A stretch of 64,000 nt of DNA, from assembly GCA_026419835.1 (NCBI GenBank), contig JAOAKQ010000002.1:206015-270014 (forward strand). Direction: 5' to 3'. Origin of the DNA: Sulfolobales archaeon. GTDB lineage: Archaea; Thermoproteota; Thermoprotei_A; Sulfolobales; NBVN01. Both the position numbers and the translations under genes were made by a program. Under the pieces are notes generated by a model. It searched no databases. It was not told the origin of the DNA and saw nothing but the letters and a program-made list of their open reading frames with translations. Of this stretch, positions 29,254-60,125 are shown piece after piece (the first letter of the stretch is position 1; every line of letters starts with the position of its first letter).

Positions 29254-29338
29254 CCCGCCGTAGCTCAGCGGCAGAGCGCCCGGCTGTAGTGTGGGGGCTG
29301 AAACCGGGTGGTCGGGGGTTCGAATCCCCCCGGCGGGA
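29254..29338 (+). tRNA. tRNA-Tyr (GUA) with ~13-nt intron at 37/38
   Basis: CCCGCCG TA GCTC AGCGGCA GAGC G CCCGG CTGTAG[intron]A CCGGG TGGTC GGGGG TTCGAAT CCCCC CGGCGGG A; C1-G72 as in archaeal tRNA-Tyr; TATA-like AATTTATAAG upstream. Confidence 0.9.
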
Positions 29339-29392
29339 CTTGGTCTAAGCTTTTTACCTCTAGTAGCTAGAGGTTACCGGTGGCTGAAATTT

Positions 29393-37192: not shown

Positions 37193-38209
37193 GTGAGAAT
37201 ATGGGGTTCCCCTCTTGGTGGGTTTCCTAGGAATAGAGTTCTGAGGAGAGCACTGAGAGACTATGAAAGAGGGGCTGTAGGTTACGAGGACCTGGAGAAA
37301 GTCCTGGTAAGTTCTTCACTAGTTGTTATAGGAGCCCAGCTTTCATCAGGACTGGCGTACGTAGTAGACGGTATGCTCGACTGGCACGATATCTTCAGAC
37401 CGTTCACCTCGTCTTGGCGCAATGTAACTCCAACCGGTCTCTTAAGGTACTTCGATAACAACTTCTTCTATAGAGTACCCCTCTTTACCGGTAAACCCGA
37501 AGCAGCTAGCTACGTCTGGGCTCAGAGAGTTCGAAGATACGCACCTCTTGCCGAGCCCGCCGGCTTTAAGATCGTGGTACCGGGCCCCGTCACATTTACG
37601 TACATGTCTAAGAACGGTTCTGAAGTCACGAACGAAGAGCTAGCTTCCAGCATAGCCGACCTACTAGCCGCTGAGGTTAGATTAGCTGTAGAAGCTGGAG
37701 CTTCACTAGTTCAGGTCGATGAACCTCTTCTCGCCGACCCGGACATCGGCTACGACCTCAGCGCTCTAGCTGCTGAGCTATCAAGTAGGATAGCCTCATC
37801 GGCAGGGTCCGCAAAAACCGTTCTAGCAATCTACTTCGGAGCCCCCAGAGCGGACGTATACGAGAATGCACTGAACGCTAGAGTTTCCTGCATCTCGATC
37901 GACGTAGCGGACGCTCCGAATAGCTCCCTAAAGCTTATAGAGTCTAAAGGTTTCGGCTCTCACTGCGCCGTTCTCGGGCTGGTCAACTCGAGAACGGTGT
38001 ACAGAGACCCTATTGACGTGATGGTAGATACCGCGACTAAGGCTCTGAAGAACTACGAAGGTGATGAAGTGGGCGTAACGACGACTACGTGGCTAGACCT
38101 CGTACCTTACGAGTACAGTATTTCTAAACTGAGAGTATTGAGTGAGTTAGTAGATTCTCTTTCATTAAAGCTGGGGGCTGAGAAAATCTCGGAGGTGGTG
38201 AAGTCGTGA
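37193..38209 (+). CDS. MetE N-terminal-domain-like methionine synthase component
   Basis: [48 protein letters not shown]. Confidence 0.8.
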
Positions 38210-56146: not shown

Positions 56147-56180
56147 TTTAAATAGCTTAGACACAGGCTCAGAAGGTGAT
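56147..56180 (+). promoter_or_regulatory. TATA-like TTTAAATA (56147-56154) and SD-like AAGGTGAT (56173-56180) for the hydrogenase operon
   Basis: SD-like motif lies 7 nt before ATT 56188; nearly the same string (GAGGTGATGTAG) precedes the GTG start at 37193. Confidence 0.55.
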
Positions 56181-56187
56181 GTAGGAG

Positions 56188-57276
56188 ATTGTCACTACGC
56201 GCGAGGAGTACTTCGCTGGAGATATCTCATCACTAGAAGAACTTGTAGGTACTTTAAGAAATCGTGGACTAAGGGTTCTCAGCTATAAACTCGAAGAGGG
56301 CCTACCCGTTTTTGGAGAGATAGGTAGCTTCAAGGAGCTACCCACCGACTGCGTAGACTTTCAAGAACCCGGGAGCTACAGGCTAGCTAGGAGTGCTGGG
56401 GGTTTCTTCAGGCACTCCTACTACTCACCAAAGCACTTTCTACTCCCACCGCTACAGCAAGTTTACGAAGTTCGCGATGTACTCGAAGTTGTTGAAGTTC
56501 GAGAGGACCTCGCTCCAGCAGCGCTCTTCGGAATAAAGCCTTGCGACCTCGCAGCTATAAGAGTACTCGATAGAATACTGGAAGCTGACGACCTCTACAG
56601 AGCTAGAAGGTCCAGCGTCGCCTACGTAGTAGTTGAAGAATGCTTGGAGCCCGGGGGCACCTGCTTCTGCGGTTCCACCGGAACCGGTCCGGCGGTATCT
56701 GAAGAGTACGACCTAGCCTACGCTAGACTAGGGGGTAGGGTAGTTTTTAAGGTAGGCTCTAGGAAGGGGCTCGAGCTAGTTGAAGAGCTAGGCCTACCGA
56801 GAGCTTCGGAGGGCGTGCTGAAGGAGTACCGCGAGGCTATTGATAGAGCTAGGAAGCTAGCATCTAGAATTCCGGTGGTTGAATCCTTCTCTAAGATACT
56901 GGAGGAGTCGGCCACTAAGGAGGAGCTCTGGAAGGAGGTTTCGGCAAGATGCGTTGGTTGTGCTAACTGCAACATGGTGTGCCCAACATGCTTCTGCACA
57001 GAGTTCATCGATTCCGCAGACTTATCGGGTAGAGGAAAGCGTGAGAGGCTCTGGTTTGGGTGTCTCTCATATACCTACGGTCAGGTAGCTGGACTGCACT
57101 ACAGACCGGAACTGTTTATGAGGTACAGGCACTTCGTACTCCACAAATTCGTCTTCTACCAGAAGCAGGTAGGTCTCGCAGGCTGCGTTGGGTGTGGAAG
57201 ATGCGTTACCTGGTGTCCCGTGGGTGTGGACCTGAGAGAAACGGTTCAAAAGGTTATGAACCATGTCGGTAGGTAG
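56188..57276 (+). CDS. hydB: Group 3b (sulf)hydrogenase beta subunit, Fe-S protein; probable ATT start
   Basis: SYYSPKHFLLPP..ALFGIKPCDLAAIRVLDRI..CVGCANCNMVCPTCFC..CVGCGRCVTWCPVGVDL; open frame from 56185 without ATG/GTG/TTG before 56644. Confidence 0.85.
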   Translation: MVTTREEYFAGDISSLEELVGTLRNRGLRVLSYKLEEGLPVFGEIGSFKELPTDCVDFQEPGSYRLARSAGGFFRHSYYSPKHFLLPPLQQVYEVRDVLEVVEVREDLAPAALFGIKPCDLAAIRVLDRILEADDLYRARRSSVAYVVVEECLEPGGTCFCGSTGTGPAVSEEYDLAYARLGGRVVFKVGSRKGLELVEELGLPRASEGVLKEYREAIDRARKLASRIPVVESFSKILEESATKEELWKEVSARCVGCANCNMVCPTCFCTEFIDSADLSGRGKRERLWFGCLSYTYGQVAGLHYRPELFMRYRHFVLHKFVFYQKQVGLAGCVGCGRCVTWCPVGVDLRETVQKVMNHVGR

Positions 57277-58090
57277 GCTAGTTCCGAAGAAAGGTAGGGT
57301 AGCTAGAGTTGTAGATGAAGCTCCACTAGTTAGAACGTACCACGTAGAAGTTGAGGACTTCCCGGAACCTCTTCCGGGGCAGTTCAACGTTCTCTACGTT
57401 AAGGGTATGGGGGAGGTAGTGATATCCGTATCGGACTTTAGGTCCGGTAGTAGAGCCGTGGTGGAGCACACGATTAGAGCTGTGGGATCCGTAACTAGCT
57501 ACATATACTCTAGCGTAGGTGCTGGGAGCTACCTGGGGATTCGCGGACCCTACGGAAAGGGGTGGCCTATACGCGAGTTCGAAGGATACGACGTACTCGT
57601 TGTAGGTGGTGGCGTGGGACTAGCACCACTAAGACCTATAATAAAGCATGTTGAAGCGCGTAGAGAGCGCTTCGGCCACTTCACACTTCTCTACGGAGCT
57701 AGAAGACCCGTGGATATGTTGTTTAAGTACGAATACGGCGAGTACAGTAAGATACCTAACTCAACAATCATGTACTCTATAGACGCACCGCACCCTGCGT
57801 GGAAAGGCTACGTAGGCTTCGTAACGGACTTAATAGACCGAGTAAAGCTAGACCCAGCGAATACGGCGGCATTTGTCTGCGGACCGGAGATCATGATGAA
57901 GGTAACTTCCGGCAAGCTCCTTAAGAGAGGTCTGAGAGAGGATAGGGTGTTCCTCTCACTGGAGAGAAGATGTAGGTGTGGTATAGGAATCTGCGGAATG
58001 TGTCAGCTGGGACACTTCTTCATATGTAAAGACGGCCCCGTTCTTAGCTACCAGGATGTAGGGCAGTACCTGAAGGTGAGGGGAATATGA
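57263..58090 (+). CDS. hydG: Group 3b (sulf)hydrogenase gamma subunit, FAD/NAD(P)-binding with 2Fe-2S
   Basis: LGIRGPYGKGWPI; VLVVGGGVGLAPLRPII; CGPEIMMKVT; RRCRCGIGICGMCQLGHFFICKDGPV. Confidence 0.92.
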   Translation: MSVGRLVPKKGRVARVVDEAPLVRTYHVEVEDFPEPLPGQFNVLYVKGMGEVVISVSDFRSGSRAVVEHTIRAVGSVTSYIYSSVGAGSYLGIRGPYGKGWPIREFEGYDVLVVGGGVGLAPLRPIIKHVEARRERFGHFTLLYGARRPVDMLFKYEYGEYSKIPNSTIMYSIDAPHPAWKGYVGFVTDLIDRVKLDPANTAAFVCGPEIMMKVTSGKLLKRGLREDRVFLSLERRCRCGIGICGMCQLGHFFICKDGPVLSYQDVGQYLKVRGI

Positions 58091-58854
58091 GGAAGCTTGA
58101 TTTAGCTATTGTTAAACTAGCTTCATGCTCTGGGTGTCTAAACGAGGTTCTCTACTCTCTGGTGTCTCGACAAGAACTACTGAAGCACCTCGACATACTG
58201 TACTTCACGGAGTTTCAGGATCTTAACGACGTCAAGGAGGTAGACCTAGCTATAGTGGAGGGTTCTGTAGCAACTAGCGAGCACGAAGAATTCCTAAAGT
58301 TAGTTAGAGAGAAATCTAGGCTGGTGCTAGCTCTAGGTACGTGCGCTGTATACGGAGGCGTGCAGTCTCTAAGAGTGGGCGAGGACCTTAGGAAAGTCGT
58401 AGAGGCATCTTACCCGAACCCGAGCTTCATCGAGGTCCTTCCAGATGTAAAGAGCGTGGATAGCGTAGTTAGTGTTGACTACAAGCTCCCCGGGTGCCCA
58501 GTAAATGGGGAATCTCTCGCTAGGTTGTTGGTTAAGCTCGCGCTGGGCGGTAGTGAAACACCGATAGTTGAAAATCTGTGCTCGGAGTGTAAGAGAAGAG
58601 GAGTGTTCTGCGTAACCGTACTTAGTGGAAAGCCCTGCCTCGGACCGGTGGTTATGGCTGGTTGCGGAGCTCTATGCCCTAGCTTTGGGCGCGGGTGCTA
58701 CGGGTGCTACGGCCTCAGCACTCTAGTGGTGGATAGAGAAAGACTGGAAGAGTTCTTGAAGACTCTAGAGAAGTTTGGAGTTGGTAGGGACGATCTAGTA
58801 GCGCTACTGAAAGCCTACAGCTACTCATCCCTCTCGAAGCTCATCGCGAGGTGA
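58087..58854 (+). CDS. hydD: Group 3b (sulf)hydrogenase delta (small) subunit
   Basis: VKLASCSGCLNEVLYSL; ALGTCAVYGGVQSL; LPGCPVNGESLARLL; multiple Fe-S Cys. Confidence 0.92.
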   Translation: MRKLDLAIVKLASCSGCLNEVLYSLVSRQELLKHLDILYFTEFQDLNDVKEVDLAIVEGSVATSEHEEFLKLVREKSRLVLALGTCAVYGGVQSLRVGEDLRKVVEASYPNPSFIEVLPDVKSVDSVVSVDYKLPGCPVNGESLARLLVKLALGGSETPIVENLCSECKRRGVFCVTVLSGKPCLGPVVMAGCGALCPSFGRGCYGCYGLSTLVVDRERLEEFLKTLEKFGVGRDDLVALLKAYSYSSLSKLIAR

Positions 58855-60125
58855 GCTCGGTGCTTGCGGGTCTTCTCACTAGAGTGGAGGGTGAAGGTCA
58901 GGTAGTTCTTAAGTCCTTCAACGGAGTAGTATCGGGTGTTGAAGTTAGGGTAAGTGAAGCACCGAGATTCTTCGAGTACATCGTTAGAGGGAGGAGGTAC
59001 TCCGAGGTCCCGGATCTAACGAGTAGGATCTGCGGTCTGTGCGGGGTTTCATACGCTCTCACAGCTTCTAAAGCCTTCGAGAGCTGCCTATCTATCGATG
59101 TAGCGGAAGACGAGGAAAGACTTAGACTCGCAATGCTAGCGGCTGAGAGAGTGAAGAGCCACATGATCCACATAGCCCTACTCCACCTACCGGATTTTCT
59201 AGAGCTTAGGTCACTTAAAGAACTCGCAGAAAGCTATCCGCATATCTACAGTAAGAGCGTTGAGGTTGTGCTCTGGTCTAGGAAGGCCATGGAAGTTCTA
59301 GGTGGGAGATTCCACAACGTTCTGAATTTACGCGTAGGCGGTGTCTACGGCTTCCCAGAGACTTCTAAGGTTGAAGCACTGAGACGGGAGCTACCTAAGG
59401 TACTCGACAACTTCCTAGACGTAGCTAGGTTCGTGCTGAGCCTCGGTAGTATACCTACGGAAGTTCACGAGTTGAGGTACATGGCGGTAAGCAACGGCAC
59501 CGGCTATCCATGGGTTGGCGGCAGCGTGGTCGCCGATAAAGGGTCTCCCGTAAGCATAGAGGTCTTCGAGAATTTCGTACTGGCGGAGCAGGCGAGGTAC
59601 TCCAATGCCCTGAGATATAGGCTCGCACCCGGAGAATCCTACGTAGTAGGACCTCTAGCTAGGTACAACCTTCACTCGAGGTTCCTTAGGAGAGAAGTGA
59701 GAGAATTCCTGAGCGAGTTCGGCTACGGAGAAAACCTCAGAAACTTGTACCAGAGTGTAGTAGCTCGCATAGCCGAGACCCACCAGACTCTACTCGAGCT
59801 CGAAGAATTCCTCAGCGAGTACAGAGAAAGATCTGTATCCGAAGCTAGGCCTAGAAGCGCGACTCCCAGAAGTACCTGCGCCGCAGTTACTGAGGCACCG
59901 AGAGGGGTCCTGTACCATAGGTATGACCTAGACAGTGACCTGAGAGTTAGGAGTAGCAACATAATTACCCCAACAGCTCAGAACCTAGCGTCAATGGAAG
60001 ACGCAATACTGAGTAAGCTCTCCGGTTCGAGCGCCGACGGTAGGGCGATTGAAATAGCTAAAAAGATCGTTAGATGCTACGATCCGTGCATATCGTGCTC
60101 CGTTCACATTATTCAAGTTACCTAG
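58851..60125 (+). CDS. hydA: Group 3b (sulf)hydrogenase alpha (large NiFe) subunit
   Basis: L1-like RICGLCGVSYALTA; L2 DPCISCSVH followed by a short tail IIQVT*; TEAPRGVLYH. Confidence 0.92.
   Translation: MSSVLAGLLTRVEGEGQVVLKSFNGVVSGVEVRVSEAPRFFEYIVRGRRYSEVPDLTSRICGLCGVSYALTASKAFESCLSIDVAEDEERLRLAMLAAERVKSHMIHIALLHLPDFLELRSLKELAESYPHIYSKSVEVVLWSRKAMEVLGGRFHNVLNLRVGGVYGFPETSKVEALRRELPKVLDNFLDVARFVLSLGSIPTEVHELRYMAVSNGTGYPWVGGSVVADKGSPVSIEVFENFVLAEQARYSNALRYRLAPGESYVVGPLARYNLHSRFLRREVREFLSEFGYGENLRNLYQSVVARIAETHQTLLELEEFLSEYRERSVSEARPRSATPRSTCAAVTEAPRGVLYHRYDLDSDLRVRSSNIITPTAQNLASMEDAILSKLSGSSADGRAIEIAKKIVRCYDPCISCSVHIIQVT

Follow-up and report, generated by a model that had tools for sequence, protein, structure and literature searches.

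In a 64,000-nucleotide (64-kb) stretch of DNA from a Sulfolobales archaeon (assembly GCA_026419835.1, contig JAOAKQ010000002.1, positions 206,015 to 270,014; the window hereafter), the hydrogenase gene hydB is probably translated from an ATT codon at position 56188, as one case of a relaxed, Shine-Dalgarno (SD)-guided initiation at near-cognate codons across a Sulfolobales genus. A start other than ATG, GTG or TTG (the conventional or canonical codons throughout) is credible for hydB mainly because near-cognate starts turn up in several genes of the genus; an earlier note on this DNA had treated the ATT as an isolated oddity, a view that the genus comparison overturned. The genus set comprised seven metagenome-assembled genomes (MAGs), namely the source MAG G000, which holds the window and is fragmented (107 contigs, 84% complete), and its sister species G001 to G006, while 23 other genomes of the family served as outgroup for start-codon columns. 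The named relatives of the source MAG are uncultured Sulfolobales and Desulfurococcaceae archaea. The frame of hydB and its start region contain the following features:

56147..56152, + strand: TATA-like box TTTAAA, the presumed hydB promoter, its centre 38 nt before ATT
56174..56180, + strand: SD AGGTGAT, a 7-nt match to the archaeal anti-SD complement TGAGGTGATCC (the 16S 3' end of G000 is not in the assembly)
56182..56184, + strand: in-frame TAG, read in the sequence, bounding the hydB frame on its upstream side
56188..56190, + strand: ATT, the proposed hydB start codon, by homologous column and by SD and TATA spacing
56188..57276, + strand: hydB, sulfhydrogenase-type [NiFe] hydrogenase beta subunit, 362 amino acids counted from ATT
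56644..56646, + strand: TTG, first conventional start codon in the hydB frame and an internal leucine codon, with 145 conserved coding codons upstream

Along the frame, TAG 56182-56184 is followed by GAG 56185, ATT 56188 and GTC, after which the frame (56185-57276) remains open to TAG 57274-57276; its first canonical codon, TTG 56644, lies 152 codons past ATT. This start-free stretch of 153 codons is the second longest among the 374 stop-to-stop open reading frames (ORFs) of at least 120 amino acids on the 334-kb contig, the longest being that of a 137-aa frame that looks spurious. As canonical codons make up 4.1% of in-frame codons, the chance that a single gene contains 153 start-free codons is ~0.0017. 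The missing canonical start is therefore unusual on its own, although a genome may hold such a case by chance.

The stretch upstream of TTG 56644 is coding sequence. HydB conservation begins at about residue 8, and the 145 codons before the TTG share 46-63% amino-acid identity with four sister orthologues, with nucleotide differences concentrated at third positions (37/36/83, 51/35/81, 51/50/94 and 52/54/88 at the three codon positions for the four sisters); after the TTG, identity is 64-69% with the same third-position pattern. Residues 39-356 align to the solved sulfhydrogenase 1 subunit beta (PDB 9nez_B, E=1.9e-35), and the product matches the NCBIfam profiles ShyB (3.9e-40) and HydB (1.1e-36) as well as Pfam Fer4_22. 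These scores lie under the NCBIfam equivalog cut-offs (137.8 versus 690 for ShyB and 126.5 versus 750 for HydB), and hydB hence encodes a relative, not a proven equivalent, of the characterised HydB/ShyB. Gamma, delta and alpha genes at 57263-60125 provide the operon context of a sulfhydrogenase beta subunit. The earlier note had described a hydrogenase beta subunit whose frame is open from TAG 56182, with about 150 conserved N-terminal residues before a first start at TTG 56644, and a twin sequence at a GTG-started gene at 37193. Our results agree with this description, though with family matches below the equivalog cut-offs, and the twin sequence was recovered as well (GAGGTGATGTAGTTGTG, found before 37193).

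The region around ATT 56188 resembles that of ordinary starts in the source MAG, where 295 conserved starts divide into 119 GTG, 109 ATG and 67 TTG. Counted from the last G of GGTG to the start codon, the SD spacing of canonical starts has its mode at 7 nt and a range of mostly 4-11, and the distance from a TATA-like box to the start peaks at 31-38 nt. The hydB SD, which the earlier note had rightly seen in place, ends 7 nt ahead of ATT; its last G of GGTG (56178) lies 10 nt ahead, within the canonical range and above the mode, and the TATA-to-ATT distance of 38 nt falls at the edge of the peak. In the orthologues, the column of ATT holds ATG in G002 and TTG in G003 and G004 with no indel assumed, and it sits seven codons before a conserved Tyr-Phe in G000 and likewise in these three sisters. 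The claim that a start is expected at 56188 thus gained a homologous column and SD and TATA spacing in its favour; that initiation occurs at ATT 56188 itself, with methionine as first residue, is what we infer from the sequence.

Outside the genus, the hydB orthologue of G041 (L006), from another family of the order, has no ATG, GTG or TTG until about codon 115. The sequence there, GGTGATACATC ATT TCT, suggests that ATT or ATC came to serve as the start independently.

Within the genus, four further genes show near-cognate codons in a start column that can be compared across genomes:

G000:C30 319963-320250, - strand (L272; also L273-L278): TFS (RpoM/TFIIS-like), ACG start column
G000:C19 308785-309030, - strand (L212; L217): aIF5A, CTG start column
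L057:4010-5023 = G000:C30:144010-145023: OppD-like ATPase on the same contig as hydB, ATA start column
L242-L244, L246 and L247, with G003 as L248: uS19, presumed start column, ACG in five members of the genus

Read as alignments, the TFS and aIF5A columns give firm evidence for near-cognate starts. For TFS, each of the seven genus genomes carries ACG, whereas the 23 other family genomes compared all carry ATG; a TAG directly before the ACG closes the frame in G000 and G001, and an alternative downstream start would drop the first zinc-ribbon cysteines. The aIF5A column holds CTG in G000 and G001, where it is preceded by TGAGGTGAT TTAG CTG (also given as TGAGGTGATTTAG CTG), and TTG in G002-G006. 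Each of the 23 other family genomes has ATG, GTG or TTG, which lies in this column in 22 of them and a codon further upstream in G007, and the next canonical codon of aIF5A in G000 is codon 71 of 133. As the same near-cognate codon recurs in independent assemblies at the position of the relatives' ATG or TTG, assembly error cannot explain these two genes, and sequencing error is excluded for TFS by seven MAGs and for aIF5A by two.

The OppD-like ATPase of G000 carries the SD GAGGTGA (start region AGAGGTGA ATAGGA ATA) and has ATA where G002 and G004 have ATG and G015 has GTG, with the next canonical start about 130 codons in. For uS19, ACG occurs in five of the seven genus genomes, G004 having ATG and G003 possibly ATA. 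The gene has no canonical codon before codon 27 in G000, G001 and G002, while an ATG five codons later could serve instead of the ACG in G005 and G006; by this comparison, ACG is the probable start of uS19 in three or more genus members. Several genes of G000 are conserved as coding upstream of their first canonical codon when compared with G002, and these two genomes alone yielded a weaker set of candidates: MetRS (ACG), a Band-7 protein (ATA), Cdc48 (ATA in G000, ATC in G002), a LivF-like ATPase (CTG versus GTG) and the ORF at C30(-):131256 (CTG versus TTG). For MetRS (G000:C19, reverse-strand coordinates 113177-114916), G000 reads GTG TGA AGT ACG and G002 reads GTG TGG ACC ACG, which would fit an ACG start in G000 or, alternatively, a GTG start that has been disrupted there. 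A CTG/CTG case at C19:125523 was dropped as its substitution pattern fits another reading frame.

Upon pairing 1.03 Mb of G000 with 0.89 Mb of G002, we obtained 540 reciprocal-best ORF pairs. Among 18 conserved ORFs of these two genomes that have an SD and no canonical start, 11 showed a near-cognate codon (CTG, ATA, ATT, ATC or ACG) at SD spacing, versus 4.3 expected from codon usage (simulated P=0.0007). This test was used because cross-tabulating start codons chosen by their SD score was too noisy, with internal TTG and CTG leucine codons mixed in. About ten candidates in the 540 pairs correspond to ~2% near-cognate starts, a rough count and not a measured rate. The balance tips slightly toward the broader proposal that near-cognate codons (ACG, CTG, ATA, ATT and perhaps ATC) are ordinary starts in perhaps 2% of the genus's genes, some fixed in all species as the ACG of TFS is, by way of a changed initiation machinery.

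Several points weigh against initiation at ATT 56188. The hydB ATT is known from one MAG of the species, its SD spacing of 10 exceeds the modal 7, with GAG 56185 occupying position 7, and the enrichment test is rough, having scored the TFS of G000 as a miss (other SD register) and an internal ATA of uS19 as a hit. In addition, two codons close by offer themselves as starts, one overlapping the ATT and the other aligned with ATG in two siblings:

56189..56191, + strand: +1-frame TTG that shares two bases with the ATT (ATTG), its frame closing after 15 codons
56197..56199, + strand: ACG in the hydB frame

An unlikely, though the best surviving, alternative is that hydB starts at TTG 56189 and that a one-base deletion in 56191-56205, be it an assembly error, a mutation or a programmed frameshift, hides this start. 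TTG TCA CTA at 56189 would read M-S-L, and MSL is the N-terminus of many family homologues as well; a single indel in the 15 nt that follow would be enough to give back an ordinary start, one added base after the TTG yielding the same N-terminal length. Such a start needs an extra event, whereas ATT holds the homologous codon without any, and an indel here would leave the other near-cognate starts of the genus unexplained, above all TFS in seven independent MAGs. Slightly less probable again is a start at ACG 56197, itself a near-cognate codon and the conserved start of TFS in the genus. It aligns with the ATG that G006 hydB has three codons downstream of the ATT column and with the second ATG of G002, but with distances of 19 nt to the SD and 47 nt to the TATA box it lies outside the main canonical range. 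Very improbable is a start at GTG 56176 or ATG 56179 with readthrough of TAG 56182: GTG, ATG and TAG do share the hydB frame, but both codons lie inside the SD, and TAG is the commonest stop in G000 (266 of 488), hence not reassigned, which makes readthrough unlikely; no tRNA with a CUA anticodon was found in the 1.03 Mb of G000 scanned. A start at TTG 56644 with the upstream part untranslated, which default gene callers would pick as the first conventional in-frame start, can be set aside, as it would cost HydB about two fifths of the protein, the 145 upstream codons are conserved with third-position bias and in part align to 9nez_B, and the sibling starts lie 152 codons before the TTG column.

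For initiation at ATT 56188, the simplest reading of the mechanism is as follows. The hydB mRNA probably begins about 10-12 nt upstream of ATT, as judged from the TATA box; AGGTGAT would pair with the 16S 3' end and set ATT in the P site, where the initiator Met-tRNA would accept the near-cognate codon. The genus would then tolerate CTG, ATA, ATT, ACG and perhaps ATC as starts in a small share of genes, core ones included. The predicted N-terminal peptides under near-cognate starts are MVTTR or VTTR for HydB, MKFCAR for TFS and MSVEYAELGELR for aIF5A.

A factor relevant to such a relaxation is aIF1, which controls start-codon fidelity in Sulfolobus and Pyrococcus by discriminating against non-canonical starts (PMC6237735). 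Its gene in the source MAG is:

G000:C19 161962-162183, - strand: aIF1 (SUI1)

That the relaxation stems from a loss of aIF1 was ruled out by the presence of SUI1 in six of the seven genus genomes, the remaining one being a 79%-complete MAG. Where most family relatives have LATGG and QGD in the aIF1 core, G000 and G002 have LAVGG and QGNQKTR. The asparagine of QGN is shared with G008 and G021, genomes of other genera whose aIF5A and TFS start with ATG or GTG, so that the core change is only a lead. With aIF1 present, the cause of the relaxation is something that we infer; the factor is likely to be part of any mechanism in the genus.

Downstream of hydB, the operon continues with three genes:

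57263..58090, + strand: hydG-like FAD/NAD-binding gamma subunit (NCBIfam PRK08345, 6.6e-54)
58087..58854, + strand: hydD-like small (delta) subunit (NCBIfam HydD, 6.7e-41)
58851..60125, + strand: hydA-like NiFe large (alpha) subunit (NCBIfam ShyA, 5e-56)

Elsewhere in the source MAG, many tRNA genes contain introns (in the window at 29254-29339; also on contigs C19 and C41), and the tRNA-Ile(UAU) predicted on C41, whose structure is odd, is probably a false positive.

The review picture of archaeal starts comprises AUG, GUG and UUG only (PMC7531240). Archaeal gene callers accept just these three, a rule that the genus would break; if its core genes, TFS, aIF5A and uS19 among them, do make use of ACG, CTG, ATA and ATT starts, then the N-termini of these proteins are mis-annotated. 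The genus would also offer a natural system for studying what determines the fidelity of start-codon choice in the eukaryote-like initiation complex of archaea. Among open-licence papers, we found no report of ATT, ACG or CTG starts in archaea.

Known cases of unusual starts share single features with hydB. In bacteria, infC uses an AUU start to autoregulate IF3, a factor that discriminates start codons; to our knowledge, archaea are without a bacterial-type IF3. Both infC and hydB combine AUU with an SD, and here several unrelated genes are involved. The GTC start of Streptomyces sigR is repressed by IF3, a regulatory role that was shown experimentally (PMC5472188); like the ATT of hydB it is a highly unusual prokaryotic start, sigR being bacterial and a single gene. 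In chloroplasts, non-AUG starts are evolutionarily conserved in certain genes (PMC9845219), in an organelle there, whereas those of the genus are genomic, archaeal and SD-led. The closest comparison is with archaeal SD-led initiation at AUG, GUG and UUG (PMC7531240), which G000 resembles in having an SD near the start, a short leader and common use of GTG and TTG, and from which the genus differs in that ATT, ATA, CTG and ACG are implied as starts as well.
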